Positions 3,486 to 35,726 of a stretch of DNA of 36,242 nucleotides are shown one piece after another. The DNA comes from Natrialba swarupiae (GTDB taxonomy: Archaea; Halobacteriota; Halobacteria; Halobacteriales; Natrialbaceae), in NCBI RefSeq assembly GCF_008245225.1, contig NZ_VTAW01000033.1, positions 1 through 36,242 of the forward strand, given 5' to 3'. Below the pieces are notes generated by a model, which did no database searches, was not told where the DNA came from, and was given only the letters and a program-made list of their open reading frames with translations. Numbering within the stretch: position 1 is the first letter of the stretch; each line of letters starts with the position of its first letter. The position numbers and the translations under genes are program-made.

Positions 3486-4394
3486 ATGTCACCACAACTA
3501 GGCTCTAGTCGCATGGGGTTTTTCGATCGTCTCAAGACTGGCTGGACGCTCACGAAAGATAGTATTGGCGTCATCCGAAACCATCCACAGTTGTTGTTGT
3601 TCCCCCTCCTCGCGGGAATGACGAGCATCGCGTTCTTCGTGCTCTTTTTCTTCCCGCTGCTGATCGCAAATCTCGTCGGGACCGGCCTCGAGTACGCCGT
3701 CCTGTTCGTCCTGTACTTCATCACGACGTTCTTCAGTACGTACTTCTCGGCCGCGCTCGTCTACGGGGCGAACGAGGCGTTTCACGGTCGCGAACCCGGT
3801 GTCGTTGACTGCCTGAAAGCCGTCAGCGATCGCATCGGTCCGATCGTCGTCTGGTCGCTCATTTCGGCGACCGTAAGCGTCATCCTGAAATCCCTCGAGG
3901 AATCGGACAACCCGGTCGCATCGATCCTCGCCTCGCTGTTCGCGGTCGGCTGGTCGATCATGACCTTCTTTATCGTTCCGGTGATCGTCTTCGAGGACGT
4001 CTCGGTGACGTCGATGTTCAAGCGCAGTGGGGTGACGTTCAAAGAGACCTGGGGGGAGACCCTGGGTGCCGGATTCGGTATCACGCTGATCGTGACGGTA
4101 CTCGGCATCGTCCTTGCCGCCCTCGCACTCGTGGTGTCGGTACCTGTTGCGGCCGTCTTCCCCGGTCCCGGCATCTTTCTCGCCGTGGTCTTGGTCGGTG
4201 GTGTGATGGTCTTTACGTACTTGCTCAGCCAGACGATCTGGGGAATCGCCAAGACCGCACTCTACGTCTACGCCGCCGAAGGCGTAACTCCCGAGGAGTT
4301 CGACAACTTCGACTTCGAGACGCTCGGCGGCCGAACCGAACGGTCCGCCTCGCCCGACTCGAGGCGCACGTCTGAGCCGTGGGCTGACGACTGA
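3486..4394 (+). CDS. DUF6159-like polytopic membrane protein
   Basis: A 302-residue integral membrane protein. After a soluble N-terminus (GFFDRLKTGWTLTKDSIGVI) there are about six hydrophobic segments, near residues 36-64, 68-98, 116-140, 150-175, 196-230 and 232-262. A conserved-looking loop follows (VFEDVSVTSMFKRSGVTFKETWGE) and an acidic cytoplasmic tail (EEFDNFDFETLGG). The opening GW..L..S..VI..HP.L..FPL pattern matches the DUF6159 group, whose function is not known. It is flanked by its own promoter and the IclR gene, with no operon partner. The start is set by the GGAGG before 3486. Confidence 0.75.
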   Translation: MSPQLGSSRMGFFDRLKTGWTLTKDSIGVIRNHPQLLLFPLLAGMTSIAFFVLFFFPLLIANLVGTGLEYAVLFVLYFITTFFSTYFSAALVYGANEAFHGREPGVVDCLKAVSDRIGPIVVWSLISATVSVILKSLEESDNPVASILASLFAVGWSIMTFFIVPVIVFEDVSVTSMFKRSGVTFKETWGETLGAGFGITLIVTVLGIVLAALALVVSVPVAAVFPGPGIFLAVVLVGGVMVFTYLLSQTIWGIAKTALYVYAAEGVTPEEFDNFDFETLGGRTERSASPDSRRTSEPWADD

Positions 4395-18372: not shown

Positions 18373-19479
18373 CTGCTCGAGTGTGGGTTTCGTTCGACTC
18401 CAGTTGTCGTGAACTGTTTCGTGGTCAACTGCCACCGTTCCAACTGCATCGACTGGTGTAGACTGCTGTCCGAATGTCCCGGTGGCCGCAGAACGCACCC
18501 GATTTGGCGGCCCGAGTTACAGTAGTTTGTCTGACACACCGACCGCACGCTGGTTGTTCGATTCGCTTGTACTGCCTTTAGTCGTTGTCACTACTTGGGC
18601 GCTCGTCTCTTTCCAAGTGTGGCCGTTCGTTCCCTTCTGGCGGGGTTCCCTGCTAGTACTCCGACAAGCTCGACCCCAGGGTCGGACCGGACCACACCAC
18701 CGCATTCGACCCTGCAGTGCAGGCTTGCCAAAGCATTAGTGAACCCCTGATTCATCCATCGATTTCGAATTTTCGTTCACCATCGTAGGACGCGACTATA
18801 TTTCGAACGATGTGGTGAAAAGCAATGAAGAATAATTAAGTATATGGGGGTAACGGCTGGATGCCTGTTCACGATAGTTGAATCGATCGTCGACTGGCGT
18901 AGGATTACATGCGTACGACAGTAATACAATGGCTGTGTTCTACTGGAGATAGTCCATTTCTGGACATAACAGTATTAGGATAGTATGCATGATATTTAAT
19001 ATAATAATCATTAACTCCGGGACTGATGTAGCGTTATTTCCCTCAATAAGCGTGGTGTAATCAGTCTATTTGGGTGATTTACTGGAAATGCTGACTGTGT
19101 GAACGACAGAACGACTGTCAGCTGTGTTTGCGCAATTCACCAGGCTGAATCGACCTACAATGTGTTTTCGGCTGCTTTGATCCCATCCAATCGTCTGAAT
19201 CACTCGAATCCGATCGAACGCTATTTTTGGCGTCGTAGGTTTTGTCGTCGATTAGCTGCGGTGGGACTGTAATCGAGACAGTGACTGCGCTAGTATATCA
19301 GTACAGTAGGCATTCTTGGCAAAAAATGTGGTATTTAAAACATATTTGAATGCTAGTATGTGGGTCTATCAATAATTTCGAGTCCAGTTGTGATCTAACT
19401 CCTGTATGCTGTGCACTCGCATGGCAAAGACGGACGGGATCGTCCTCTTTTTATTTCACCGGCTAATCCGGACTGCTAC
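18373..19479. other. 1.1-kb gene-poor, AT-rich region
   Basis: No intact gene is supported. Short open frames (for example leftward 18517-18705, with KGTNGHTWKET) have the basic composition sometimes left by transposase relics, but I cannot match one. AT content rises sharply in 18770-19080 and 19280-19400. The whole stretch ends at the second copy of the 90-bp repeat, so it may be old mobile-element debris. Confidence 0.4.
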
Positions 19480-19572
19480 GAGCCTGTATCCGTCGATTGC
19501 GAAACGGCAAGCGATCGACCGGCAATCAGTCACAACAGACAGTTAATCAATTCACTGATATCGAGACCTCGA
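19480..19572 (+). repeat. copy 2 of the roughly 90-bp imperfect direct repeat
   Basis: Contains the exact 20-bp core AGCGATCGACCGGCAATCAG at 19510-19529, preceded by GAGCCTGTATCCGTCGATTG and followed by CAACAGAC...CACTGAT, as in copy 1 at 15821-15912. Both copies are in noncoding DNA and in the same orientation. Confidence 0.6.
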
Positions 19573-19662
19573 GTATAGGTGCGGGGGTGTTCTCTCAGAC
19601 AGAAGTTGCTCGGTGTGTTTTACCGTCTACGAGAGCGACTGTGTTTCAAAGGGAGGATGGGA

Positions 19663-19755
19663 ATGGACGAAGCAACGCAAGAGGACGTCGAAGAAGCCAT
19701 TCACGAACTCGAGCAAGAGGCGGAGTCAGACGATATCATCATTGCTGACGAGTAG
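19663..19755 (+). CDS. possible 30-residue acidic microprotein
   Basis: ATG 19663 is preceded by GGAGG at 19652-19656 with a six-base spacer; an in-frame ATG at 19657 is too close to that site. The product begins MDEATQEDVEEAIHELEQEA and ends DDIIIADE. It is highly acidic and probably helical, which is haloarchaeal in character, whereas the flanking DNA is noncoding. The family is unknown. It could be a real microprotein or the tail of a decayed gene. It lies 200 bases before the TorD-type gene on the same strand. Confidence 0.4.
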   Translation: MDEATQEDVEEAIHELEQEAESDDIIIADE

Positions 19756-19957
19756 GAAGCCGGACTCTCACAACCGTTGGCGGTCCTATTCTGGTGGCGA
19801 AACTGTTGCGATCCGTCTCACGACCGATACTGTCGACTTGACGATCACGGGAGTACCTCGATACCGTCGTCGAGAATTGATAGGGAGTACCGTCCCCACC
19901 CGACGGCCTCGGCGTCCCGTTGGTCGTGGCTGTCTGTCGATTCGTCGCACGAACACG

Positions 19958-20308
19958 ATGACTGATGCGGACGCAGAACTGACGGAGATCGGCTTGCTGC
20001 TGGCACCGGCATACCGCGTGCTCGGCCAGCCGTATCTCGGGCCACCCGAAGAACGTACGATCTCTGCGATCCAGCAGTGGTGTGAGCTGTTCGCCGACGA
20101 GTCGATGTACGTCGACGATATGCTCAACGGTCCGAGCACGACCGAGGTCGAGGCGGTCTACGTCGAGATGGGAGTTGACCTCGCCGTCGAGGACGAGCTG
20201 ATCGATCACGCCGGATACGAGCTTTCCTTCCTCGCAGAGCTGTGTGAACGCGGCGCTCGAGACGCACAGCTCGGGTTTATTCGAACCCACATCGGTGCTT
20301 GGCTGGGT
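19958..20308 (+). pseudogene. TorD/DmsD-family chaperone, 3'-truncated
   Basis: Cytoplasmic chaperones of this all-helical family fold and load cofactor into molybdopterin enzymes. From ATG 19958 the frame reads MTDADAELTEIGLLLAPAYR, then the family core GPSTTEVEAVYVEMGVDL, the HAGYELSFLAELCERG segment (a D-H-x-x-x-E-L-x-F-L type motif), and GFIRTHIGAWL. Family-like sequence then stops at about residue 116, where members normally continue with a P and another 35-60 residues. Downstream in the same frame the product becomes an Arg-rich shadow of the next gene, up to a stop at 20935. The region normally carrying the LF-G-P segment also looks short. I conclude that the gene lost its 3' end in a deletion that fused it out of frame to the polyferredoxin gene. 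Confidence 0.7.
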
Positions 20309-22121
20309 CCACGACGAGGACGCGGCGACCGAGAAGACGGCACGGCTGGTCAACGCCGCCCGTGCGGGACTCGACGTCGACAGCGAGCCCACTTCGATTG
20401 GCGAAACCGTCGGGCAGTCCGTCGCCGTCGTCGGCGACGCGCAACTGGCCGCGGCCATGCCCGAATCGGCCGACGTCACCCTGATCGCCGACGGTCGGGA
20501 GTTCGACGACGTCGGCGCAGACCTCTCGGACGTCCGAGTCGAGCGCGGCCGCGTGATCGACGTCTTCGGGTCGCTCGGGGATATCGAGCTCACGCTCGAG
20601 GCGCGAGTCACCGACGACTGTATCGACTGCATGGAGTGTGTCCGTGCCGGTCCCGACGACGCGGTCACGCGGACGCCGGTCGACGTCGATCCCGCCGCCA
20701 CTGGTGGCGAGTGGATCGACGTCTGCCCGACCGACGCGATCGATCTCGAGGGCGTCCGGCGAACCGTCTCGTTCGATCAGGTCGTCCATCCCGACGGCGA
20801 GGACGACGCCCCCGGCGGGACGACCGGCTACCACACCGACGCCGACCTCGGGACGATCGCGGCCGTCAGCGACCTACTCGACCCCGATCGATCGTCGTTT
20901 CTCGACCTCGAGATGGACGTCTGTGCGTCGGGTGACTCCGGACAGGAGGGGTGTCGAGCCTGTTACGACGCCTGTCCCCACGACGCGGTGTCGAAGCCCG
21001 CACCACACGAGGTCAGCTTCGACCGTTCGTCCTGTCAGAACTGCGGGGCCTGTACGAGTTCTTGTCCGACCGGGGCGGTCGACCTCGCGGACCGATCCAA
21101 CGAGCGGATCGCCCGCGAGGTCGAGGCACTCGTCGACGAGGAGCCAAACGGTGGGCTGCTCGACTGGTCGTCGTCGGCTGCGGTCGACCCGCAGATCGTC
21201 GCGTTTGTCTGCTCCGAGCGGGCCCAGACGGCGCTGTCGCGATACGGGCAGCTGGCTGCGAGCGGCCGGGAGGAGGTCTCGTATCCCCCGATCCTTCCCG
21301 TTCGCGTCAACTGTACGGACACGGTCGGGCAGGCACACGTCCTCCACGCGCTCGCAGCGGGTGCCGACGGCGTGACGATCGTCGGCTGTGGCTCTGACTG
21401 TGCCCACTCCGGCCCCGACCCGAAAGCCGAGTTAGTCGAGCGACTCAACGCCGCGACGACCGACCTCGGGATGGGCGAGCGCGTGGCGTTTCTCGCCCCC
21501 GACCCCGACGCGCCGCATGCGTTCGCAGACGAGCTGTCGGCGTTCGTCGACGAGCTTACCGAGACGCCGATTCCGGCGGACGAACACGAGGCCTCGGGGA
21601 CGTCACTCACTGCCGACGACGACCTGCCCGCCTACGGCAATCGCGTCTGGAGTCTCGAGAGCATCCGGACGATCCTAGAGCACGTCGAACCCGAGCGCGA
21701 GACGATCCGCGGCCTCGAGAACTTCGGGACGATGTCGGTCAGCGAGGCCTGTGGCCTGACGCCGACCTGTGAGAACCTCTGTCCGACTGGGGCGATTCGT
21801 CGTGATGGGGGCGATCTCGAGTTTAGCCACGAGCGATGTGTCGACTGTGGCCTCTGTGAAACCGGCTGCCCCGAAAGCGCGATTACGATGGACACTGGGC
21901 TCGATCTGGGGCTGTTGCCGGAGGAAAACGACGGCGACGCCTGGACGACTGTCCACGAAGCGGAGCTGTTCGAGTGCCGTCGCTGTGGCGCGGTCGTCGC
22001 CAGCGTCTCGACTGTCGAGGATCTCAAAGCACAGCTTCCGGATGGCCAGATGGATACCGTCGAGGGCCACATGGCGGAATACTGTAGCGACTGCAAAGGC
22101 GATCTCGTCTTCAACTCATGA
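20244..22121 (+). CDS. 5'-truncated HdrA/MvhD-like polyferredoxin (hydrogenase iron-sulfur subunit type)
   Basis: An electron-transfer protein with several [4Fe-4S] sites. Family-like sequence begins abruptly at GWVHDEDAATEKTARLVNAAR (from 20301), which matches the C-S-W-V-H...ATEKA..LV..A stretch of HdrA/QmoA proteins; the preceding N-terminal part is absent. The following segment (VAVVGDAQLAAAMPESADVTLIADG) looks like a degenerate dinucleotide fold. Cysteine sites are CIDCMEC plus a distant CP, CRACYDACP, CQNCGACTSSCP, CENLCP and CVDCGLCETGCP. Between them lies an MvhD/FlpD-like domain (VCSERA, PVRVNC, GADGVTIVGCGSDC). The tail has CRRC and CSDC, a zinc or rubredoxin-like pair. The only starts are GTG codons at 20244 or 20295 inside the TorD remnant, so expression is doubtful. 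The stop overlaps the next start (ATGA). Confidence 0.8.
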   Translation: MNAALETHSSGLFEPTSVLGWVHDEDAATEKTARLVNAARAGLDVDSEPTSIGETVGQSVAVVGDAQLAAAMPESADVTLIADGREFDDVGADLSDVRVERGRVIDVFGSLGDIELTLEARVTDDCIDCMECVRAGPDDAVTRTPVDVDPAATGGEWIDVCPTDAIDLEGVRRTVSFDQVVHPDGEDDAPGGTTGYHTDADLGTIAAVSDLLDPDRSSFLDLEMDVCASGDSGQEGCRACYDACPHDAVSKPAPHEVSFDRSSCQNCGACTSSCPTGAVDLADRSNERIAREVEALVDEEPNGGLLDWSSSAAVDPQIVAFVCSERAQTALSRYGQLAASGREEVSYPPILPVRVNCTDTVGQAHVLHALAAGADGVTIVGCGSDCAHSGPDPKAELVERLNAATTDLGMGERVAFLAPDPDAPHAFADELSAFVDELTETPIPADEHEASGTSLTADDDLPAYGNRVWSLESIRTILEHVEPERETIRGLENFGTMSVSEACGLTPTCENLCPTGAIRRDGGDLEFSHERCVDCGLCETGCPESAITMDTGLDLGLLPEENDGDAWTTVHEAELFECRRCGAVVASVSTVEDLKAQLPDGQMDTVEGHMAEYCSDCKGDLVFNS

Positions 22122-22207
22122 ACACGACTGACCAGACGACCCGACTGCCGACGGATCGACCGACGATCGACGACCAAGTCCGTGTCCAGGGGGTGAACGA
22201 GCGATGA
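22118..22207 (+). CDS. 29-residue ORF with ATGA overlaps at both ends
   Basis: ATG 22118 overlaps the polyferredoxin stop, and its own TGA at 22205-22207 overlaps the Mrp-type start at 22204. Both junctions are the ATGA arrangement used for translational coupling. The product starts MNTTDQTTRLPTDRPTIDDQ and is hydrophilic with no motif. Without it there would be an 82-base untranslated gap inside an otherwise tight operon, so it may be a true small gene, a leader that passes ribosomes to the ATPase gene, or a shrunken gene. Confidence 0.5.
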   Translation: MNTTDQTTRLPTDRPTIDDQVRVQGVNER

Positions 22208-23508
22208 CGGTCTCCGAATCACAGCTTCGCGAACGGCTCCGGACGGTCGAAGATCCGGCACTCGGCATCGATATCGTCTCGCTTGGACTGGTCACGGATA
22301 TCCGTATTGCGGACGGCGTCGCGAACATCACGCTCGCGTTCAACGCCCCCTATGCGCCCGACGAGATGGCGATGGGCGATCGAATCCGTGAGGTCGTTGC
22401 CGACCTCGGCCTCGAGACCAGACTGTCGGTGACCATTCCTCAGCGCAACTCCGCCGACCCGCTTCCCGGTGTGCGCAACGTTATCGCCGTCTCCTCCGGG
22501 AAGGGCGGCGTCGGAAAGACGACTGTCGCGACGAACCTCGCGGCCGGGCTAGCCGACGCGGGCGCCCGCGTCGGCCTGCTCGACGGCGACATCTACGGGC
22601 CGAACGTGCCGAAGATGATCGGTATCGACGGCGAACCGGGGATGACCGACGACGGGACCCTCGTACCGCCGGAAGCCTACGGCTTGAAAGTCATCAGTAT
22701 GGCGTTTCTCACCCGCGAAGACGACGATCCGGCCGTGTTGCGAGGGCCGATGGTCGACAAGATCCTCATCCAGCTCATCGAGGAGGTCGAATGGGGGAAC
22801 CTCGACTATCTCGTGGTCGACCTCCCCCCTGGAACAGGTGACGCCCAGCTGACGCTGCTCCAGACGCTCCCGGTCACCGGTTCCGTCGTCGTGACGACGC
22901 CCGAAGAGGTCGCTACCGACGACGTTCGAAAAGGTATCGAGATGTTCCGAAACCACGACACCCCAGTGCTCGGCATCGCCGAGAACATGAGCGCGTATCA
23001 CTGCCCCGACTGTGGGGGCGAACACGCGCTGTTCGGCAGCGGTGGCGGCCGGGAAGTCGCCGAAACGTACGACGTCCCGTTGCTCGAGGAGATCCCGATG
23101 AACCCCGAGATCAGAACACGCAGCGACGATGGCGCGCCGGTCGTGCTCTGGGAGACCGAGGCCTCGGAGCCGTTCGAGGACCTCGTCGAGTCGGTCACCA
23201 ATCGAGTCGGTGCGATCAACCGCGCCGATGTCGCCGGAATCGATCCCGACGATCCATCGCGGGACGAGCTGACGACACCGACAGCATACGGCGGCCTCGA
23301 GAACGGGGACGAAACGCCGTCGGCGACCGACCACGACGGGGCGTCCGCTGTAGACTCTCTCGAGGCGACACCTGACGCGGTCGAAGACGACGACGAACCG
23401 CTTGATGACGGCGACGAGCGCGTGACCGCTGACAAGGACGAACGAGATGGCGATGAGGAGGATGAAACACGTTCGTTCGGCGGCCTCGACGTGTCCGATA
23501 GACGGTAA
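22204..23508 (+). CDS. Mrp/ApbC-type Fe-S cluster carrier ATPase
   Basis: A cytoplasmic P-loop ATPase of 434 residues that binds and hands over Fe-S clusters. Residues 1-75 form a MIP18/DUF59 domain (VEDPALGIDIVSLGLV). The deviant Walker A SSGKGGVGKTT is at 97-107, DGDIYGPNVPKM follows, then the Walker B region VVDLPPGTGD and the cluster-binding CPDCGG. After the catalytic part an extra tail of about 85 residues is extremely acidic and low-complexity, ending RSFGGLDVSDRR; usual family members stop near 350 residues. Coupled downstream of a multi-cluster polyferredoxin gene, it probably helped mature that protein or a lost molybdoenzyme partner. Confidence 0.92.
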   Translation: MTVSESQLRERLRTVEDPALGIDIVSLGLVTDIRIADGVANITLAFNAPYAPDEMAMGDRIREVVADLGLETRLSVTIPQRNSADPLPGVRNVIAVSSGKGGVGKTTVATNLAAGLADAGARVGLLDGDIYGPNVPKMIGIDGEPGMTDDGTLVPPEAYGLKVISMAFLTREDDDPAVLRGPMVDKILIQLIEEVEWGNLDYLVVDLPPGTGDAQLTLLQTLPVTGSVVVTTPEEVATDDVRKGIEMFRNHDTPVLGIAENMSAYHCPDCGGEHALFGSGGGREVAETYDVPLLEEIPMNPEIRTRSDDGAPVVLWETEASEPFEDLVESVTNRVGAINRADVAGIDPDDPSRDELTTPTAYGGLENGDETPSATDHDGASAVDSLEATPDAVEDDDEPLDDGDERVTADKDERDGDEEDETRSFGGLDVSDRR

Positions 23509-23538: not shown

Positions 23539-24366
23539 ATGGAGAGACCCGACGTTCCAGTTCCACCTGACAACCGAGTCGCTCTCGAGGCCCTTTCGGT
23601 GCTCTCGAACAAGTGGGGGCCCGTCGTGATCGTTATCCTACTGGAGTCGGATTCGCTTCGCTTCAGCGAACTCGAGCGATCGATCCCCGAAATCTCCTCG
23701 AACATGCTCTCGAAGACGCTCGAGGCGCTCTCGGAGCAGGGACTCGTCGACCGACGCGTGCTCTCCGAATCGCCCCTGTCGGTGGCGTACGAACTGACGG
23801 ATGCCGGATACGAGCTGCAACCGGTGTTCGACTCACTCGCGGCCTGGGGGGACGAACACGTCGACTCCGTGCAGCCGACGGTCGTACTCGGAGACCGTGA
23901 CCGTCGACTCGCCGACCTCTACGGCAGCTGGTTACAGGACCGATTCGACACGGTCACGGTGAGCGATCAGGAACAGCTTCGTCGGACGCTCGCGGAGACG
24001 CCGGACGTCGTCGTTTTCGATATGGATCTGTGGGCTGACGATCCGGCGACACTCGAGACGCAGTGTCCCGACGTAACTCGCTGTATCGCCCTCGTCGGTG
24101 ATCGCCCCGATCCGTCGCTCTGTGCGTGGCCGTGTGACGACATCCTGCGGAAGCCCCTTCTCAACGACGAGTTGATCGCAGCCGTCGCCCGGCAGGTCGA
24201 TCGGCTGGGTCAGCCAGATGCGATACGGGAACGCGAGGCGATCGAATCGAAGCTCTCCTTGCTCGAGTCGATCCACTCGGCGCCGATCCTCGAGGCGGAC
24301 GAGCGAGTCGTACGGCTGTACGACCGCCTGTCAACCCTCGACACGGAGGCAGTTAGGGAAAGCTAA
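23539..24366 (+). CDS. HxlR winged-helix regulator fused to receiver and HalX-like domains
   Basis: A three-domain regulator of 275 residues. Residues about 12-105 are an HxlR-type winged helix (LSNKWGPVVIVILLESDSLRF, then ISSNMLSKTLEALSEQGLV, split across helices). Residues about 113-222 look like a response-regulator receiver: acidic D119 and D121 in LGDRD, candidate phospho-acceptor D161 in VVVFDMDLW and K205 in LRKPL, while the usual Thr/Ser switch position is replaced (ALVGD). Residues about 225-272 form a HalX-like helical hairpin (REREAIESKLSLLESIHS). Haloarchaeal receivers often carry HalX, but an HxlR DNA-binding head in front is unusual to me. It follows the Mrp-type gene on the same strand and probably controls the redox block or the giant surface protein gene. 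Confidence 0.85.
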   Translation: MERPDVPVPPDNRVALEALSVLSNKWGPVVIVILLESDSLRFSELERSIPEISSNMLSKTLEALSEQGLVDRRVLSESPLSVAYELTDAGYELQPVFDSLAAWGDEHVDSVQPTVVLGDRDRRLADLYGSWLQDRFDTVTVSDQEQLRRTLAETPDVVVFDMDLWADDPATLETQCPDVTRCIALVGDRPDPSLCAWPCDDILRKPLLNDELIAAVARQVDRLGQPDAIREREAIESKLSLLESIHSAPILEADERVVRLYDRLSTLDTEAVRES

Positions 24367-24425: not shown

Positions 24426-27400
24426 ATGGTAAATCAGGGGCAGGGCACGACCCGGCGGGGACTGGGCGTGCTCATCTGGATCGGAATCGTGGGAATCTGC
24501 GGACTGTGTGTTGTCGGTGGTGTCGCCGGGATCGCAGCTGCAGACGCTGGCGACGGATCGGAAGCGGATCGAATCACACCGACGCAGTTCGACAGCGACG
24601 AGGGCGACGTGCTCTGGGAGACCGACGAAGACCTCACCACCGGGGGAGCCCCGACGGTCGTCGACGGGATTCTCGTGACGACGACCGGCGACACTGGCGC
24701 AGACGCGGCCGTCACTGCGTACGACGTCGGGACGGGTGAGACGCGCTGGACGACCGAGGTCCCGACCGACGGATCGCCGACGGTCGTCGACGAGACGGTG
24801 TACGTCACCGGCACGGACGGCGTCTGGGCGCTCGACCTCGAACTCGGGACGCTCGAGTGGCACGTCGAGTTCGACGACGGGACGAGTTCATCGCGGGCAC
24901 TCGGCGTCGACGGCGACTACGTCTACGTCGGCGAGTCGATCGACGCGACCACGGATCGACTGTACGCACTCGACGCCGACGATGGAAGCGAGCAGTGGTC
25001 GACGGAGACGGCGACCATCTACAGCGGCCCGACGGTCGTCGACGGGACGGTCTACGTCGGTACGGCCGACAAACTGGTCGCGGTCGATGCGTCTGACGCT
25101 GAAGAGCAGTGGACGTGGGACGACTACGGCGTCCTCGAGGATCGGTCGGCTATCTCGGAGCCGACGGTGTCCGACGGCCTCCTCTACGTCAGCCTTCGGG
25201 AGGGAACCGAACAGGGCGGCTACGATCGCTCCACCGTGGCGATCGACATCGAGACAGGCGAGGACGAATGGACGCACGCGTTCGATGGTCCCTCGGGGGG
25301 AGACGTCTCCCAGACGCCCACGACACCAACAGCCTCGGGCGAGAGCGGTGAGGCGACGGTTTACGTCGCATTCGACGGACTGTACGCCCTGGACGCGACC
25401 GACGGCAGCGAACGGTGGATCGACGAGACGACGGTGTGGGACGCGCCGACGGTCGCCGACGGAACGCTGTTCGTTCCGCAGTCGACGGATTCGGGAGCGC
25501 TACGAGCGCTCGACGTCACCGACGAAGGAAGCGAGCTGTGGTCAGTCGAGACCGGCGATCGCAGCGACGTCATCGTCGTCGACGGCGTCCTCTACGTCGC
25601 GGTGCAAGTAGACGAAACGGGCGAGACACGCCTGATGGCGATCGACGCCGGCGTCTCGGGCTCCAGTAGCGACGCTCGCGTAATGGTCGGCGTACAGAAC
25701 AACCACCACGAGTGGACCGGCACGGTGGCGGAGACTGATCCGCGCGTCGTCGACGTCGCGTTCGACGAGGGCGTCCTCGTCGAGGAGGATGTTTCGGTCA
25801 CGGTGACGGCGAGAAACGATCGGGGGCAGGCGAGTACTGCGAGTTTCGACCTCGAGCTCGGCGGCGAGACGGAGACCGTGACCCTCGAGGTTCCGGCCTA
25901 CGGGACGAACACCGTCGACTCGTCGATATCCGCACCCGCAGCGGCGGGGACGTACGACCTCGAGGTCGATGACGCGGTCGTCGGGACGGTTACCGTCGTC
26001 GACGAGTCCGACCCGATCGTCCGAGTCGTGCACCCGTTCTACGAGACGTGGCTCGAGGGCGACTCGGTACAGATCGCCTACGAGGCGACGAACCTCGGAA
26101 CTGAATACGTTGATGAGAACACAACCCTGTCGCTTGAAGGGCCGGCGTTTGACGGTCGCGAAGATGTCGCGTTCGTGGACGCTGAAGGACCTTTGCCGGG
26201 TGAAGAACGAACGTACTTCCTTAATACCGACGAGATTACCGACCCTGGAACGTACACCGCATATCTCGAGGGCGAGGAGATCGGGACGATCGTGGTAGTT
26301 TCGGACCCGGTCTACCTGGCCGACACTAACCGACTGCACGACTCGATCATCAGCGGTATCGAAGCGCCCGTCGATCCGAGCGCTGCGGGTGAGGCGAGCG
26401 TCGACGTTCGCTACGAGAATCTCGTCGATGGAGGCCAGAGCGTCGAGAGCGAGCTGGTCGCCTACGACGGGGGGAACGAGGTTGCAAGCGTCACCGACAC
26501 AGTCTCTGTCGGCGGCGAAAGTGCCGAAACAGAGCGATTGAGTGTCACGCTTGCTGAAGCCGGTACGTACGATCTCGAGGTCGACGGCCAGTCCGTCGGT
26601 GAGGTCGAAGTACTCGTCGACGGCGTTCAGGATGGTGACAGCATCCAGGATGCGATCGACGCGGCCCAGCCGGGCGAGACGATCCTCGTCGGGAACGGCA
26701 CCTACGAGGAGTCACTCACGATCGACAAGCCGCTGACGCTGCGGTCGGTGTCCGACGGTGGTGCCGTTCTCGACGGGGAGGGCAAACTCGAGCGTGCGAT
26801 CACGGTGGACGCAGCGGACGTGACCGTCGACGGGGTCCGGATCGAGGGGTATTCCGGCGGAGGCGAGGCTGTCTTCGTCGGTGACGATCGGTTCACACTT
26901 CGAAATACCGCTATCGTCGACAACGACGGTGGCGCACTCACAATCGACCGAAACAGTGACGAATTCAGTATCGATCGCAACGAGATACGCAGAAACGATG
27001 CTGGTATCGTCGACGGTGATAGTTGGTACCCCTCCGATGACGGTACGATTACGAACAACACGATCGAAGACAACCAGGGTCTCGGGATCGACCTTGCAGG
27101 GGACGATCACGGTATCGCAAAGAACAACGTGAGCGGCGACGGCGACGCCATTTCTGCAACCGGATCAGATTTGGAAATTTGTCAGAACAACGTAACGGCG
27201 ACAGACGGCATCGCCATCCAGATCCGGGGCGATTCGGTCGTGGTGGACAATACGATCGAGGATGCCGAATGGGGGATCCACCGGGACGGTACTATCTCCA
27301 TGGACGGGACAGCCATTGAGGGAAATACCTTCCGCGATGTCTCCCACGCAATCCCGCACGCGGGTGATGATACGATCGTCCGTGACAACGAGTTTTCGGG

Positions 27401-30400
27401 GACTGACATCGACCTCGTGCTCGACGGTGCGATCAACGCGACGGTCACAGACAACGCATTCGTCACGGGCATTCAGCTCGACGGCGTTCCCGAAGACCTC
27501 GACGCGAATCCACACGAGATGTCCGAAAACACCGTCGGTGGTGACCCGCTCGTGTACGCCGTCGACGAAGACGCCCCCGCGATCGATCCTGGTGCCGGAC
27601 AGGTCATCCTCGTCGACGTCTCGAACGTCGAAATCGACGAGCACTCGTTCTCGAACGTGAGTGCAGGGGTGCAAGTGACCCACTCCGATAGCGTCGATAT
27701 CATCGGCGGCGAGTTCACCGATATCGGTGGCAGCGCGATCAGCGTTTGGCACTCGTCGTCGGTGTCCGTCGATGAAGTCGACGTGATGGACGCAGAATAT
27801 GGATTGGACGTTTTCGACAGTGACGGCGTGACGGTCTCGAATGTGGACTTCACAGCTGTCGGTCGTACCGCGATTCACGTCGAACACGTCGAGGGGCTCT
27901 CGATCGTCGGGAACAGCATCCAGGACGCCAACCGCGGTCTCCACGTACTCACGGCAGACGAGGTAACAGTGACCGACAACGTCATCGAGGACTCGAGTAC
28001 TGGCGTTCAGTTCGGTTTGCTGTCGCCCGGAGGTCTGGCCACCACCGAAAACCTCACGTTCATGAACAACACGATCACCGGAAGTAGCGGTGACGGCGTG
28101 AAGATGGATTGGGGTTCACTCACCGGCGTGGTGACGGTTCGCGATTCCACCGTTCGTGACAACGGCGGGGTCGGAATGGACCTCGACATCGACGGTGTGG
28201 ATGCGCTGATCAAGAACAACACCGTCAGGGACAACGAGGGCGACGCCGGATTCGTCCTCGATGTAGAGAGTGAAACGGCGACAATCTCGGACAACGTCGT
28301 CACCGACAACAGCGGTGCTGTCGGATTCGATATTCACGTCGACACCGCTGATGGCACGATCGAATCGAACACCGTACGACACAACGAGGACGGCCTCGTC
28401 GTGACCGGCAACGGTGAGTACGGTCTCGAAAACGCCACGATCACGCAGAATATTATCGAGGACAACACCGGAATCGGACTCACTGTCGGCGGGGACCAGA
28501 ACGTCGTCGTCACCGAGAACTCGATCGCTGGTAATGGCGACGGTCTGTTGTACACCAATGGCCTCGAGAACCTCGACGCGCGAAACAACTGGTGGGGTGC
28601 GGTTGACGGGCCAAGCGGCGGTGAAACCGATCCGGAAACAGGTGCTGTTGCAGACGGGAGCGGCGACTCACTCGACACAGCCGGTGGTTGGGCAGATTAC
28701 GTGTTGTTCGACGAGTGGCTCGAGGCCCCACTCCTCGAGACTGGGACGATCACTGGCACTGTCACTGACGCGGACTCCGAGGACTCGCTCGACGGGGCGA
28801 CTGTCGTCGTCACCGACGACGCCGGAGTTACTGAGACCGCCGAAACCGACGAGAACGGAGTGTACGAGCTCGTCGTTCCCGTCGGGACGTACGACCTGAC
28901 GGTGAGCGCCGACGGCTACGCCGAGGCCGAAGAGACCGCCCTCGAGGTGGCTGACGGCGGTGTACTGACGACGGACGTTAGCCTCCACGTGGGTGAAGCG
29001 TCGATCAGCGGGACGGTCGTCGACGCCGAAACCGGCGATCCGGTTCCAGACGCGGAACTCGAGGTGGTCGAACAGGTCGACGTTGGCCAGACGGATCCCG
29101 CCCCGGACGGATTTGCGACGACTCTCTCGACCGACGCGAACGGTGCGTTCGACCTCGACGTCCCACCGGGGGTCTACGAAATCACCGTCGAAACACTCGG
29201 ATACGCGAACGGAGGCCGTCAGAACATCGAACTCGAGACGGGTGAACAACAATCACTCGACGATATCGAACTCGCTTCGGTTCCGGTTCTGAGCGGCACC
29301 GTAACGGATTCGGAGACGGACGAACCTATCCAGGGGGCCGAGATCGAATCGCGGTTCTTCGCGAGTGACCCGTTGTACACAACGACGACGGATGCCGATG
29401 GCGAATACGCGATCAACCTCCCGGAACATCACTCGCAAACGCCGTCGGTCGAATTCGCCGCTGATGGGTACTTCTCGAACACAATCACCGCTGACGACGA
29501 CCGTCTCGCGGACCCCGCGGGCGGCGACGTCGAACTTACCGTCGAACGTGAACCGGGAACCGTCACCGGCCAGGTTACGACGGAGACCGACGACCCGGTG
29601 GCGTCCGCCCACGTCACCACCAGTGACGGAAGCGGATCCGCGTGGACGAATGCGACCGGATACTACAATCTTCATCTCCAACCGGGGACGTACACGCTCG
29701 AGGTGACGACCGAGGAAGCCGTGCCACAGTCCGGGACGGTCGACGACGTCGAAGTGGTCGAAGGGGGAACCACCACGGCGGATATCGTCGTCTCCCCGGG
29801 ATCACTCGAGCCGCCGTCGGCGAACGTATCCGTCGAGATTCAACCGACAGCGAGTACGACCAGCGCCACCGAGGGTGAGAACCTGACCGTCGTCGCCGAC
29901 ATCGATAATTCCGGGACGGGGTCGACAGATTCGATAGTCGTACTGGGAGTCGAGGAACTGGAATCGTCGGAATCTCTGTACGAGGCGGAACCCCGTTCGG
30001 TCTCTCTCGAGGCCGGCGAACACGTGACCGAGACGTTCACCTTCGAGTCGGAACTCGAGTTCGACGGTGCTGAGGCGGTCGTCGCTGCGTTCCCACCAGG
30101 ATCGGACGAACCCGACGACGTCGACGAGATCGAACTCTCGGTTTCGGAAGCCGATGCCGATCGGGAACTCGAGTCGCTGTCGCTTTCGATCGACGAGACG
30201 ACGATCTCCGAGGGATCGGCGACGTCGGCGACGGTGATCGCGACGTTCGACGACGGAACGACCGAGGACGTCACCGCCGAGACTCACTTGGCGAGTGATC
30301 CCGTGGATGTCGTCGCCATCGCTGGCTCGACGGTCGTCGGCGAGGAAACCGGAACGGCGACGATCACCGCCGATTATCAGGGCGAGACCGATAGCGTCGA

Positions 30401-33400
30401 GATGACGGTAGCGGCCGACGAACAGCCACCATCTGATCCAGAACTCGGGTCGCTGTCGCTTTCGGTCGACGAGACGACGATCTCCGAGGGATCGGCGACG
30501 TCGGCGATGGTGATCGCGACGTTCGACGACGGAACGGCCGAGAACGTCACCGACGGGACGAGTATCGAGAGCAACAGCACCGACGTCGTCTCCGTCGACG
30601 GTTCGATGCTCGTCGCCGAGGGTCCCGGCGTGGCGACGGTAACCGCCACGTACGACGGCGAGACCGATAGCGTCGAGATGGCCGTCGAGGCGGACGAACA
30701 GGAACTCGACCCCGAAACCGAACTCGACGTCCTCGAGGCGACCGTGACGCCGACACAGCTCGAGGCCGGCGAGGAGGCGACGATCGAGGGGACGATCGCA
30801 AACGTCGGCGAGGGTGACGGCGAACTACTCGTTCCACTCGAGATCGGCGGCGAGGAGGTCGAGAGTTCGACGGTCACGCTCGACGCGGGTGAGAGTACGG
30901 ACGTCGCGTTCGCGTGGACGTTCGAAAATGCCGGTGAGTTTCAGGTCGGCGTCGGCGGCGTCGACATTGGAACCGTCACCGTCGTCGAGGACGCCGACGC
31001 GGACGTCCTCATCTACGGCGCAGATATGAGCCAGTCCGCGGTCGTCATCGGCGAGACCGTCACCGTCACCGGCGACCTGCTCAACGACGGCGGAGCTGGC
31101 ACCGTTGCCGTCGACCTGAACGTCGACGGTGAACGCGTCGACACCATGACCGTCGAGGTCGGACCGGGTGCGACGCCCGGCGGCGTCGAGTTCGAGTGGA
31201 CGCCGACCGAAGCCGATCTCCCCGCCGGAGAAGACGAGGCGAACGTGACGATCTCACTCGACGGCTTCGTCGTCGGTACGGTCCACGTCGAACACCAGTA
31301 CTCCGACATCCAGGTCGTCGCGGCCTCGGCTTCGGAGACCGAACTCGTCGAGGGCGAGGAGGCGTACGTGATCGGAAGCGTCTACCAGGCGGGCAACGTC
31401 GAGGGAACGGAGGAGATCGAACTCACGGCAACCCACCAGGAGACTGGCGAGGAGACCGTCGTCGGCAGCCAGGAGGCGACGATCGCGCCTGGATACTACC
31501 ATCTGGGTGCGATCAACATCACGTACGTTCCCGAGGACGCGGGCACCTACGACCTCGAGTTGGGCGACCGGGCGGCGGGAACGATCGAGGTGGAGGCGGC
31601 CGAAAGCGACGTCCAGGTGATCGCGGCTTCACCCTCTGAACTCGAACTGATCGAGGGCGAGGAGATGCACGTGATCGGGAGCCTGTACCAGGCGGGCAAC
31701 GTCGAGGGAACCGAAGAGATCGAACTCACGGCGACGAATACGGCGACCGGCGAGACGACCGTGGTGGGGAGTCAGGAGATGACAGTCGCACCCAACGTCT
31801 ACCACCTCGGTGCGATCAACATCACGTACGTGCCCGAGGACGCGGGCACCTACGACCTCGAGTTGGGCGACCGGGACGTGGGAACGATCGAGGTGGAGGC
31901 GGCCGAAAGCGACATCCAGGTGATCGCGGCCTCCCCATCCGAGATCGAGCTGATCGAGGGTGAGGAGATGTACGTGGTCGGAAGCGTCTACCAGGCTGGC
32001 AACGTCGAGGGCCCTGAAGAGATCGAGCTCACGGCAACGAACGCCGAGACCGGTGAAACGTCGGTCGTCGGCAGCCAGGAGATGACGGTCACACCCAAGG
32101 TCTACCATCTGGGTGGGATCAACATCACTTATGTGCCGGACGAAGCCGGCGACTACGACCTCGAGCTGGGCGACCGGGACGTGGGAACGATCGAGGTGGA
32201 GGCGGCCGAAAGCGACATCCAGGTGATCGCGGCTTCACCATCCGAGGTCGAACTGATCGAGGGCGAGGAGATGCACGTGGTCGGAAGCGTCTATCAGTCG
32301 GGCAACGTCGCCGGACCGGAGGAGATCGAACTGACGGCGACGAACACCGAGACCGGCGAGACGACCGTGGTTGGGAGCCAGGAGGTGACGGTCGCGCCCA
32401 ACGTCTACCATCTTGGCGCGCTCAATTTGACGTTCGCTCCCGATGCGGGAACGTACGACCTCGAGTTGGGCGACCGGGCGGCGGGAACGATCGAGGTGGA
32501 ACCGGCCGAAAGCGACATCGAGGTGATCGCGGCCTCACCCTCCGAAGTCGAGCTGGTCGAGGGCGAGGAGATGTACGTGGTCGGAAGCGTCTATCAGTCG
32601 GGCAACGTCGCCGGATCGGAAGAGATCGAACTGACGGCGACGAACGTCGAAACCGGCGAAACAACTGTGGTCGACAGCCAGGAGGTGACGGTCGCACCCA
32701 ACGTCTACCACCTCGGCGGGCTCAACGTCAGCTACGTGCCGGCGGACGCCGGCGACTACGATCTCGAGCTGGGCGGCCGGGACGTCGGGATGGTTACCGT
32801 CGACGAACGCATCACCGATATCAGGGTCGTCGGCGCATCGCTCTCGACCGCCGAGCTGATCGAGGGTGAAGAGCTGTCGGTCACAGGGAGCGTCTACCAG
32901 AACGGCAGCCACACGGCGACCGAAGAGATCGAACTCACGGCCACGGAGACCGAGACGGGCGAATCGACCGTCATCGGCAGCCAGGAGGTAACGCTCCAGC
33001 CGGGGTACTACCATCTGGGTGCGATCAATATCACCTACGTTCCCGATCCGGGAACGTACGACCTCGAGTTAGGCGACCGAGACGCGGGAACGATCGAGGT
33101 CGAAGCGGCCGAAAGCGACATCGAGGTGATCGCGGCCTCACCATCCGAGATCGAACTGATCGAGGGCGAGGAGATGTACGTGGTCGGAAGTGCCTACCAG
33201 GCTGGCAACGTCGAGGGAACCGAAGAGATCGAACTCACGGCGACGAACGTCGAAACCGGCGAGACGACCGTGGTCGACACACAAGAGTTGACGGCCGCGC
33301 CCAACGTCTTCTACCTCGGTGGACTCAACGTGACGTACGCCCCCGAGGACGCCGGCACCTACGACCTCGAGTTGGGCGACCGGGATGTGGGAACGATCGA

Positions 33401-35726
33401 GGTCCAGGCGGCCGAAAGCGACATCGAGGTGATCGCGGCCTCACCCTCCGAATTCGAGCTGGTCGAGGACGAGGAGATGTACGTGGTCGGGAGCGTCTAC
33501 CAGGCTGGCAACGTCGAAGGAACGGAGGAGATCGAACTCACGGCGACGAACGTCGAAACCGGCGAGACGTCGGTCGTCGGAACGCAGGAAGTGACGGCCT
33601 ACCCCAACGTCTACTATCTGGGCGCGCTCAACGTCAGCTACGTGCCGGCGGACGCCGGTACCTACGACCTCGAGTTGGGCGATCGGGACGCGGGAACGAT
33701 CGAGGTCCAGTCGGCCGAAAGCGACATTCAGGTCGTCACCGCCTCGCCGTCGACCGTGGAGGTTACAACGGGCGAGGAGATGCACGTGATCGGAAGCGTC
33801 TACCAGGCTGGAACCATCGCAGGGACCGAAACGATCGAACTCACGGCGACGAACACGGCGACCGGTGAGACGACCGTAGTCGACACACAAGAGATGACGG
33901 TCGCGCCCAACGTCTACCACCTCGGCGGGCTCAACGTCAGCTACGCGCCGGCGGACACCGGCACCTACGACCTCGAGTTGGGCGATCGGAACGCCGGCAC
34001 GGTCGAGGTCGTCGAACCGACGGTCGCCCCCGAGATCGTCGCCGTCGAGGGACACACCAGCGCGTTCGATCCCGAAACCGAACAAGTGTACGCGAGCGAG
34101 GACGTCCCCGTCACCGTCGAGATCGATGCGGACCTCGATCTCGGGACGGTGAACGTGTTGGTACAATCGCTCGAGACGAACTACGTTCGCGCGTTCGAAG
34201 CAAGCCACGACGGTGCCAACAGCTGGACGGCGACGGTGTCACCCGACGCCATCGAAGACGACGGTCGCTACGACGTGTCGGTTGTTGCCGTCGATTCGGC
34301 CGGCAACGCCGGGACTGACTCCGCCGGCAGACCACTCGTGATCGACCGCGAACCACCTCGCCTCTCGGCGACCGTAGAGGACGTCGACGGCGAGGGAGCA
34401 ACGGTCGTCGTCGAGAGCGACAAACCCCTCGTAGAGCCGCCGGACGTAGACGGCGTGTTCACCGCTCCCGACGGGGCCTCGACCGAGAGCGGGTCGGTCT
34501 CACTGCACCCTGTCGGCAGAAGTGACACCGACTTCACCGGCTCTTTCGCTACCGGCGAGACCGGCAGCTACGAGATCACGAGCGTCGGCACTGACCGCGC
34601 CGGAAACGAGGGATTCGACACCGCATCGGTCACCGTCGACACCCGATTTACGCTCGAGGACGGCGTCATCGAGATCGACGAGACGGGCACCACCATCGAG
34701 TTCGAGGTCGCAGACGGAGCCGACGAAGCGGTCCTCACCCAGGATCTCTTCGTCTCGCTTTCAGAGACGACTGCCAACGCGAACCTCGACGACGACCAGC
34801 TCGGGGTCGGCTTCATCACCGCGGATCTCGACAGCCTTCTCGAGTACCACCTCGATCAAGGCACCGTCGAGAGCGCGTCGATCTCGATGGCGATCGACGA
34901 CGAGACCCTCCCCGACGGGGCAGTCGCCGACGACGTCGAACTCCACTACTACGACGACGAGAGCGGGGACTGGGACCCCGTGGTAGGATCGACCGTCACG
35001 GAAATCGACAGCGATCCGTTCCTCACGGCGTCGGTCTCCGGGTTCTCGACGTACGGTGCGTTCGTCCCTGATACCGAACCACCCGAGATCACGACCGCGA
35101 CACCCGCCGACGGGGGCGTGTTCGCCGCCGGTACCGAAACCGTCGACCTCCGCCTCGAGTACGACGACCCCTACTCGGGGATCGACGCGAGTTCCGTCCG
35201 CCTCGAGATCGATGGCGTCGACCGGACTGATCACGAGAACACCTCGATAACGTCGTCGGGGATCGAGCATACGCTTTCCGTCGCGGACGGAGCCGACTAC
35301 GACGTGTGGCTCTCGGTTGCCGACGAAGCGGGCAACGAAGCGACACACGCCACGTCGTTCGAGGTTGGGTCGTCGTCGACCGGATCCTCGGGCGGTGGCG
35401 GGGGCGGGGGCGGAGGCGGAGTGTCTCCGCCGGTAGCTGGCGACGGTGGATTCGATTCCGACGACACAGCGACTGCGGACGACCATGGCTCCGCCGTCGA
35501 CGATCGTGACTCCGGTTCCGACGACGCTGACGTCCCTGTGGCGGCCGATGATTCGACCGCCGGCGCGGACGACGATGAACTGGATCCCGTCGACGAGACG
35601 CCGGTCGATACTGACGATTCGACGACCGACGACTCAGATGGCGTTCCCGGATTCGGCACGGGAGCCACAGTTCTCGCGGTCTTCCTTTCTCTTACACTCC
35701 TCTTGGGACGCGCACACGGTCGATAG
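24426..35726 (+). CDS. giant multidomain cell-surface protein with PGF-CTERM-like tail
   Basis: A 3,766-residue exported protein. The N-terminal hydrophobic signal (RRGLGVLIWIGIVGICGLCV) is followed by a PQQ-type beta-propeller at about 50-415 (repeated VVDG.VYV and ALDA.DGSE..W motifs). Three CARDB-like domains run to about 733, then a NosD-like right-handed beta helix at about 734-1435 opening DGDSIQDAIDAAQPGETILV and ending NNWWGAVDGPSGG. Four carboxypeptidase-regulatory-like domains span 1439-1795, another CARDB 1796-1910, two BIG2-like domains 1913-2092 and two more CARDB-like units to 2292. Nine tandem repeats fill 2293-3199. Ig-like and PGF-pre-PGF-like domains follow, then decaglycine (3656-3665), an acidic stalk and PGFGTGATVLAVFLSLTLLL ending in RAHGR, an archaeosortase A-type anchor. 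It is probably an adhesin or stalk-like surface structure. The reading frame is intact. Confidence 0.9.
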   Translation: MVNQGQGTTRRGLGVLIWIGIVGICGLCVVGGVAGIAAADAGDGSEADRITPTQFDSDEGDVLWETDEDLTTGGAPTVVDGILVTTTGDTGADAAVTAYDVGTGETRWTTEVPTDGSPTVVDETVYVTGTDGVWALDLELGTLEWHVEFDDGTSSSRALGVDGDYVYVGESIDATTDRLYALDADDGSEQWSTETATIYSGPTVVDGTVYVGTADKLVAVDASDAEEQWTWDDYGVLEDRSAISEPTVSDGLLYVSLREGTEQGGYDRSTVAIDIETGEDEWTHAFDGPSGGDVSQTPTTPTASGESGEATVYVAFDGLYALDATDGSERWIDETTVWDAPTVADGTLFVPQSTDSGALRALDVTDEGSELWSVETGDRSDVIVVDGVLYVAVQVDETGETRLMAIDAGVSGSSSDARVMVGVQNNHHEWTGTVAETDPRVVDVAFDEGVLVEEDVSVTVTARNDRGQASTASFDLELGGETETVTLEVPAYGTNTVDSSISAPAAAGTYDLEVDDAVVGTVTVVDESDPIVRVVHPFYETWLEGDSVQIAYEATNLGTEYVDENTTLSLEGPAFDGREDVAFVDAEGPLPGEERTYFLNTDEITDPGTYTAYLEGEEIGTIVVVSDPVYLADTNRLHDSIISGIEAPVDPSAAGEASVDVRYENLVDGGQSVESELVAYDGGNEVASVTDTVSVGGESAETERLSVTLAEAGTYDLEVDGQSVGEVEVLVDGVQDGDSIQDAIDAAQPGETILVGNGTYEESLTIDKPLTLRSVSDGGAVLDGEGKLERAITVDAADVTVDGVRIEGYSGGGEAVFVGDDRFTLRNTAIVDNDGGALTIDRNSDEFSIDRNEIRRNDAGIVDGDSWYPSDDGTITNNTIEDNQGLGIDLAGDDHGIAKNNVSGDGDAISATGSDLEICQNNVTATDGIAIQIRGDSVVVDNTIEDAEWGIHRDGTISMDGTAIEGNTFRDVSHAIPHAGDDTIVRDNEFSGTDIDLVLDGAINATVTDNAFVTGIQLDGVPEDLDANPHEMSENTVGGDPLVYAVDEDAPAIDPGAGQVILVDVSNVEIDEHSFSNVSAGVQVTHSDSVDIIGGEFTDIGGSAISVWHSSSVSVDEVDVMDAEYGLDVFDSDGVTVSNVDFTAVGRTAIHVEHVEGLSIVGNSIQDANRGLHVLTADEVTVTDNVIEDSSTGVQFGLLSPGGLATTENLTFMNNTITGSSGDGVKMDWGSLTGVVTVRDSTVRDNGGVGMDLDIDGVDALIKNNTVRDNEGDAGFVLDVESETATISDNVVTDNSGAVGFDIHVDTADGTIESNTVRHNEDGLVVTGNGEYGLENATITQNIIEDNTGIGLTVGGDQNVVVTENSIAGNGDGLLYTNGLENLDARNNWWGAVDGPSGGETDPETGAVADGSGDSLDTAGGWADYVLFDEWLEAPLLETGTITGTVTDADSEDSLDGATVVVTDDAGVTETAETDENGVYELVVPVGTYDLTVSADGYAEAEETALEVADGGVLTTDVSLHVGEASISGTVVDAETGDPVPDAELEVVEQVDVGQTDPAPDGFATTLSTDANGAFDLDVPPGVYEITVETLGYANGGRQNIELETGEQQSLDDIELASVPVLSGTVTDSETDEPIQGAEIESRFFASDPLYTTTTDADGEYAINLPEHHSQTPSVEFAADGYFSNTITADDDRLADPAGGDVELTVEREPGTVTGQVTTETDDPVASAHVTTSDGSGSAWTNATGYYNLHLQPGTYTLEVTTEEAVPQSGTVDDVEVVEGGTTTADIVVSPGSLEPPSANVSVEIQPTASTTSATEGENLTVVADIDNSGTGSTDSIVVLGVEELESSESLYEAEPRSVSLEAGEHVTETFTFESELEFDGAEAVVAAFPPGSDEPDDVDEIELSVSEADADRELESLSLSIDETTISEGSATSATVIATFDDGTTEDVTAETHLASDPVDVVAIAGSTVVGEETGTATITADYQGETDSVEMTVAADEQPPSDPELGSLSLSVDETTISEGSATSAMVIATFDDGTAENVTDGTSIESNSTDVVSVDGSMLVAEGPGVATVTATYDGETDSVEMAVEADEQELDPETELDVLEATVTPTQLEAGEEATIEGTIANVGEGDGELLVPLEIGGEEVESSTVTLDAGESTDVAFAWTFENAGEFQVGVGGVDIGTVTVVEDADADVLIYGADMSQSAVVIGETVTVTGDLLNDGGAGTVAVDLNVDGERVDTMTVEVGPGATPGGVEFEWTPTEADLPAGEDEANVTISLDGFVVGTVHVEHQYSDIQVVAASASETELVEGEEAYVIGSVYQAGNVEGTEEIELTATHQETGEETVVGSQEATIAPGYYHLGAINITYVPEDAGTYDLELGDRAAGTIEVEAAESDVQVIAASPSELELIEGEEMHVIGSLYQAGNVEGTEEIELTATNTATGETTVVGSQEMTVAPNVYHLGAINITYVPEDAGTYDLELGDRDVGTIEVEAAESDIQVIAASPSEIELIEGEEMYVVGSVYQAGNVEGPEEIELTATNAETGETSVVGSQEMTVTPKVYHLGGINITYVPDEAGDYDLELGDRDVGTIEVEAAESDIQVIAASPSEVELIEGEEMHVVGSVYQSGNVAGPEEIELTATNTETGETTVVGSQEVTVAPNVYHLGALNLTFAPDAGTYDLELGDRAAGTIEVEPAESDIEVIAASPSEVELVEGEEMYVVGSVYQSGNVAGSEEIELTATNVETGETTVVDSQEVTVAPNVYHLGGLNVSYVPADAGDYDLELGGRDVGMVTVDERITDIRVVGASLSTAELIEGEELSVTGSVYQNGSHTATEEIELTATETETGESTVIGSQEVTLQPGYYHLGAINITYVPDPGTYDLELGDRDAGTIEVEAAESDIEVIAASPSEIELIEGEEMYVVGSAYQAGNVEGTEEIELTATNVETGETTVVDTQELTAAPNVFYLGGLNVTYAPEDAGTYDLELGDRDVGTIEVQAAESDIEVIAASPSEFELVEDEEMYVVGSVYQAGNVEGTEEIELTATNVETGETSVVGTQEVTAYPNVYYLGALNVSYVPADAGTYDLELGDRDAGTIEVQSAESDIQVVTASPSTVEVTTGEEMHVIGSVYQAGTIAGTETIELTATNTATGETTVVDTQEMTVAPNVYHLGGLNVSYAPADTGTYDLELGDRNAGTVEVVEPTVAPEIVAVEGHTSAFDPETEQVYASEDVPVTVEIDADLDLGTVNVLVQSLETNYVRAFEASHDGANSWTATVSPDAIEDDGRYDVSVVAVDSAGNAGTDSAGRPLVIDREPPRLSATVEDVDGEGATVVVESDKPLVEPPDVDGVFTAPDGASTESGSVSLHPVGRSDTDFTGSFATGETGSYEITSVGTDRAGNEGFDTASVTVDTRFTLEDGVIEIDETGTTIEFEVADGADEAVLTQDLFVSLSETTANANLDDDQLGVGFITADLDSLLEYHLDQGTVESASISMAIDDETLPDGAVADDVELHYYDDESGDWDPVVGSTVTEIDSDPFLTASVSGFSTYGAFVPDTEPPEITTATPADGGVFAAGTETVDLRLEYDDPYSGIDASSVRLEIDGVDRTDHENTSITSSGIEHTLSVADGADYDVWLSVADEAGNEATHATSFEVGSSSTGSSGGGGGGGGGGVSPPVAGDGGFDSDDTATADDHGSAVDDRDSGSDDADVPVAADDSTAGADDDELDPVDETPVDTDDSTTDDSDGVPGFGTGATVLAVFLSLTLLLGRAHGR
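28740..29808 (+). repeat. four carboxypeptidase-regulatory-like domains
   Basis: Each unit opens with a G.V.D.....P..GA pattern: ITGTVTDADSEDSLDGATV, ISGTVVDAETGDPVPDAEL, LSGTVTDSETDEPIQGAEI and VTGQVTTETDDPVASAHV. Each contains a D..G.Y/F......PG.Y core. They are diverged at DNA level, so this is an old domain duplication and not recent DNA amplification. Confidence 0.75.
30163..30700 (+). repeat. pair of BIG2-like domains with near-identical DNA
   Basis: Two units of about 90 residues start at 30163 and 30439. Both contain SLSLS.DETTISEGSATSA followed by VIATFDDGT, and the DNA over the first 90 bases is nearly identical. That points to recent duplication or gene conversion, in contrast to the older domains upstream. 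Confidence 0.75.
31302..34022 (+). repeat. nine tandem repeats of 100-101 codons
   Basis: Units start at 31302, 31605, 31908, 32211, 32511, 32814, 33114, 33417 and 33720; the spacing is 300 or 303 bases throughout. Each encodes a CARDB-like beta-sandwich of the form SDIQVIAASPSE-ELIEGEEM-VIGSVYQAGNVEGTEEIELTAT, then TGETTVVGSQE, VYHLGAINITYVP and AGTYDLELGDR--GTIEV. The junction GCGGCCGAAAGCGACATC recurs nearly unchanged. Unit 6 (TDIRVVGASLSTAELIEGEE) is the most diverged and unit 9 marks the edge with altered residues. Confidence 0.9.

Follow-up and report, generated by a model that had tools for sequence, protein, structure and literature searches.

HdrA, subunit A of the CoB-CoM heterodisulfide reductase, is the closest described counterpart of the electron-transfer gene considered here; in methanogens it has an FeS cluster-binding domain at its N-terminus (PMC9012536). 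End joining in wild-type Haloferax volcanii produces microhomology deletions of 6–977 bp with 3–5 bp repeats (PMC2700283). A literature search found nothing direct on a haloarchaeal HdrA-TorD operon. Of the intact loci, the closest is carried by a plasmid of Natronorubrum bangense (NZ_CP031306.1, 685184–695464), with the gene order mobA, ArsR, molybdopterin oxidoreductase, FeS subunit, NrfD/PsrC, small protein, TorD (200 aa), HdrA/FlpD (701 aa), Mrp, arsD, and arsA. The gene set from ArsR to Mrp is also present in genomes G141, G051, G017, and G024, giving five intact operons including that of N. bangense. In all five, TorD and HdrA are separate genes, adjacent or slightly overlapping. The N. 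bangense HdrA/FlpD gene is listed as a 'hydrogenase iron-sulfur subunit'.

The window analysed here is a stretch of 36,242 nucleotides, one entire contig (C42) of a single draft genome of Natrialba swarupiae (4.2 Mb, 99 contigs). The segment from 19955 to 23508 is very probably a decaying operon remnant, namely the deletion-scarred tail of a molybdoenzyme operon (Table 1). TorD, HdrA/FlpD, and Mrp are arranged in the same order as in N. bangense, and the proteins are 90% (HdrA part) and 88% (Mrp) identical. In contrast to the window, the N. bangense genes are all intact, and that locus has an additional 135 bp and 402 bp, the molybdoenzyme genes upstream, and arsD-arsA downstream.

Table 1. 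Features of the operon remnant and its left flank (window positions).
Feature	Position	Strand	Remarks
Dispersed repeat	18653–18741		More than 20 copies in the genome, mostly 84–92% identity; within a low-GC non-coding stretch
Dispersed repeat	19875–19962		Six genome matches including itself; stops at the left edge of TorD homology
Left junction	19955–19958		Homology to the intact operon begins here, at the TorD start codon
TorD-family chaperone remnant (pseudogene)	19958–20305	+	45 codons lost internally and about 38 at the C-terminus
Scar of internal TorD deletion	20097–20104	+	135 bp, in frame (ADES/MYV); microhomology ACGAGTCG
TorD/HdrA out-of-frame junction	20300–20304	+	TGGCT microhomology; N. 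bangense has 402 bp more here
HdrA/FlpD-like electron-transfer protein	20301–22121	+	Residues 96–701 of 701 kept; N-terminal Cys-rich domain missing
First Fer4 (4Fe-4S) pair	20949–21080	+	Pfam
FlpD/MvhD-like domain	21195–21560	+	PF02662, E=2.3e-19
Second Fer4 (4Fe-4S) region	21768–21890	+	Pfam
Mrp/NBP35 Fe-S carrier ATPase	22204–23508	+	Intact last gene of the relic; N. bangense homology ends at its stop codon

Both flanks of the TorD-HdrA junction align to the intact N. bangense locus at about 87–93% DNA identity and break at the junction, where separate BLAST pieces stop and resume at identical bases. Thus, the junction is not a chance reading. Specifically, the DNA between two TGGCT copies is lost, comprising the last ~38 TorD codons and the first 95 HdrA codons, together with the gene boundary between them. 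The five bases are common to both breakpoints, forming a direct repeat at each end, of which one copy is retained. An earlier note on this DNA placed the end of the TorD-like sequence at GAWL (~20305) and, in a different frame, the beginning of the HdrA-like sequence at GWVHDEDAATEK (20301); both Pfam and the N. bangense alignment confirm this. It also attributed both losses to a single deletion and proposed alignment to intact haloarchaeal orthologues as the way to size the missing segment; the alignment to N. bangense gives one 402-bp deletion between the repeats. Both partners are truncated at the junction as the note described, but neither has lost the adjoining half (~38 codons of TorD and 95 of 701 HdrA residues). 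The account of a single scar was incomplete, because it overlooked the second TorD deletion, the absence of the molybdoenzyme genes upstream, and the left-breakpoint repeat: the operon remnant has at least three junctions, of which the TorD-HdrA scar is one.

A conserved joined TorD-HdrA arrangement, the possibility that the note had set against a deletion, is rejected: all 38 other family genomes that hold the gene have a full-length HdrA of ~700 aa, matching from within the first eight residues, and the joined form occurs in none of them; only the window copy begins at residue 94–96.

The TorD-like reading begins with the ATG at 19958, ends with ...THIGAWL, and matches the Pfam family Nitrate_red_del (E=4.6e-10). 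Beyond the junction its frame stays open to 20935, merely as an arginine-rich out-of-frame reading. Alignment to N. bangense locates the internal loss of 45 codons between ADES and MYV, and the lost segment includes TRLLQGVSYGESTPPPY, which is nearly identical in all five intact sequences. The 8-bp ACGAGTCG retained at this scar corresponds to a repeat in the intact genes, because relatives G051 and G017 carry GACGAGTCG on the left side of the deletion and four of the five comparators carry TACGAGTCG on the right side; the left copy is inferred from G051 and G017. The window copy does not make up a complete Nitrate_red_del/TorD domain, whereas an intact orthologue covers positions 3–135 of the 136-position profile. 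A search of the genome found no second intact TorD copy.

The open frame of HdrA extends upstream as far as a GTG at 20244, and its opening residues are out-of-frame TorD. The intact relatives of this gene share the Fer4 pairs and the FlpD domain with an HdrA carrying a fused MvhD/FlpD, and their N-terminal Cys-rich stretch is a weak match to it; the window copy differs in having no such domain. The score against the HdrA model is far under the cut-offs (111.6 versus 1100 bits), and Pfam reports no FAD-binding thioredoxin-reductase domain in the window copy or in an intact relative. By weak alignment to the methanogen protein, the N-terminus of the haloarchaeal HdrA-like protein may bind an FeS cluster. 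This N-terminal domain is absent from the window copy, as the first 95 residues are gone. Five cysteines (12, 14, 18, 42, and 66), each kept by 90% or more of 34 relatives, are lost with it. The remaining 27 of 27 conserved cysteines are retained and none of the 154 invariant columns is broken, so no decay of HdrA is visible beyond the truncation. The genome was searched for a second HdrA copy or relative elsewhere, and none was found. The product probably no longer works as it does in relatives. In other genomes, more distant HdrA/FlpD relatives (about 53–57%; loci L049, L050, L051, L052, and L041–L043) lie beside a different molybdopterin oxidoreductase in opposite orientation, and sequence matching found no TorD adjoining them.

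At the left edge, homology begins at 19955, three bases ahead of the TorD start, and the end of the adjacent dispersed repeat has about (A)CGATGAC in common with that start. The stretch to the left, from about 18500 to 19950, has a GC content of 0.45–0.55, versus about 0.65 in the surroundings; inspection of 18373–19957 by eye in six frames found no recognisable gene remnants. Within it, a third repeat family at 19459–19543 is also common in a sister species (G003), and a possible 32-codon ORF (MGMDEATQEDVEEAIHELEQEAESDDIIIADE) at 19657–19755 has a weak DNA match elsewhere (C18:86985–87132, 70%). Further to the left, a 160-bp stretch at 576–734 is 87% identical to N. bangense plasmid DNA (L086, positions 3896–4055) and to one other site in the genome (C61:2375–2531). 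To the right of Mrp, an HxlR-type regulator (23539–24366) adjoins a giant protein of 3766 aa (24426–35726); their N. bangense homologues (49% over the full length and 67% over 1557 aa, respectively) are on the same plasmid as the intact operon, some genes beyond it.

The catalytic subunit of the molybdoenzyme has no match on any contig of this genome. As a positive control, the same search detected it at 84–100% identity in the five genomes with intact operons; relocation within the genome is therefore rejected for the catalytic subunit, the one subunit that was searched for separately. The lost enzyme is presumably the client of TorD. Arsenate respiratory reductase (Arr) was considered as its identity and rejected, because the N. 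bangense subunits score far under the ArrA and ArrB cut-offs (110 of 1600 and 148 of 450 bits, respectively). The best solved-structure match for the N. bangense molybdoenzyme is ArrA, but it is weak; the arsenic-linked neighbours there are ArsR, arsD, and arsA.

Selection was analysed with a codon model on six species, comparing the window branch with the sister branch. For TorD, dN/dS is 0.31 on the window branch, against a sister-branch value of 0.014 (p=0.025; small sample), with 5 nonsynonymous and 4 synonymous changes versus 0 and 9 (p=0.03), and the window branch is compatible with neutrality (p=0.26). Constraint on TorD is relaxed, a signal that rests on few changes. For HdrA, the window branch (0.17; about 0.10–0.31) exceeds the sister branch (0.073; p=0.03), is near the background (0.15), and rejects neutrality (p=9e-6); a simple parsimony count finds no difference between the two branches (p=0.69). 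Most HdrA changes arose under constraint. Mrp is strongly constrained on both branches (0.048 and 0.058). Relaxation is slight or absent in the HdrA and Mrp frames. Probably, therefore, either HdrA was cut recently or selection still acts on what is left. The earlier note reached the same pair of options from a frame clean for 600 codons. The options agree with the codon analysis, but the clean frame itself is weak evidence and says nothing about function, because only about 1.2 stop codons are expected without selection (from ~47 changed codons, at a nonsense fraction of 0.025).

These observations suggest an order of events. An ancestor would have carried the operon ArsR, molybdopterin oxidoreductase, FeS subunit, NrfD/PsrC, small protein, TorD, HdrA/FlpD, and Mrp, similar to the N. 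bangense plasmid operon. The Natrialba swarupiae lineage would then have lost the enzyme genes that preceded TorD, with the break at the dispersed repeat. TorD, left with no presumed client, would have taken the 135-bp in-frame deletion, and the 402-bp deletion would have fused its leftover to HdrA codon 96 in a different frame. The order (enzyme genes, then TorD, then the cut in HdrA) is suggested by the gradient of constraint. The short direct repeats at the ends of both small deletions (8 and 5 bp) fit microhomology-mediated end joining or slippage. As in H. volcanii (PMC2700283), the deletions are of up to hundreds of base pairs, with short repeats at both ends and one copy kept; the window deletions differ in being known from sequence alone, and the 8-bp repeat exceeds the 3–5 bp reported there. 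Microhomology-mediated end joining may thus account for both deletions, and the sequence is also compatible with replication slippage.

The enzyme genes could also have vanished in another way. It is quite possible, though short of probable, that the genome received by horizontal transfer just the TorD-HdrA-Mrp end of an operon borne on a plasmid, and that the two small deletions followed or came along with it. Three sister species of the genus were searched and lack the gene, the closest relative is plasmid-borne, and homology runs from the TorD start to the Mrp stop; yet no sequence separates this course from acquisition of the whole operon and subsequent loss. It departs from the decay of a complete operon solely in how the enzyme genes disappeared, and the small deletions are the same either way. 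An assembly or sequencing artefact, in which the contig was joined wrongly at short repeats while an intact TorD-HdrA pair exists in the organism, would be consistent with a single contig of one draft assembly, with junctions at short repeats, and with the lack of independent reads. However, there are two separate junctions, the operon upstream is missing as well, no contig carries the catalytic subunit, no second TorD or HdrA fragment is available as a candidate for the lost pieces, and the TorD remnant shows excess amino-acid change, all of which make such an error highly improbable.

Operon decay is compatible with a truncated HdrA/FlpD that still works from a new internal start, lacking the N-terminal domain and serving together with Mrp as an Fe-S electron carrier; this proposal disputes solely the death of the HdrA part, and we consider it unlikely. 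The rejection of neutrality for HdrA, the dN/dS near background, the undamaged cysteines and invariant columns, and the strong constraint on Mrp speak for it, as do HdrA homologues of ANME archaea that naturally have no N-terminal domain (PMC9012536). However, the constraint may all predate the deletion, dN/dS exceeds that of the sister branch, and the sole listed start upstream of codon 96 is the out-of-frame GTG inside TorD. In addition, the ANME forms presumably operate together with a partner HdrA, and a second relative was not detected in this genome. The more specific proposal that HdrA/FlpD, deprived of its N-terminal domain and molybdoenzyme, has been kept with Mrp as a stand-alone Fe-S unit starting inside the dead TorD is distinctly unlikely.

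A second relic of the same operon, more decayed than that of the window, is present in a different genus (genome G015, genus g13; contig C35, locus L053, 8449–9020, minus strand). All that is left there is the end of HdrA, its frame broken, and pieces of Mrp, which is cut by a deletion of about 580 bp. Its breakpoints differ from those of the window, and the operon therefore appears to have decayed independently there.

The relic in the window implies no new system. It is ordinary operon decay through short-repeat deletions, caught midway: the catalytic genes are gone, two cuts have hit the chaperone, the electron-transfer gene has lost its start, and the final gene is whole. Automatic annotation could list a short or fused 'hydrogenase iron-sulfur subunit' here as a normal gene. 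With both intact and more decayed copies at hand for comparison, the locus provides a well-resolved case of the stepwise loss of a haloarchaeal respiratory operon.
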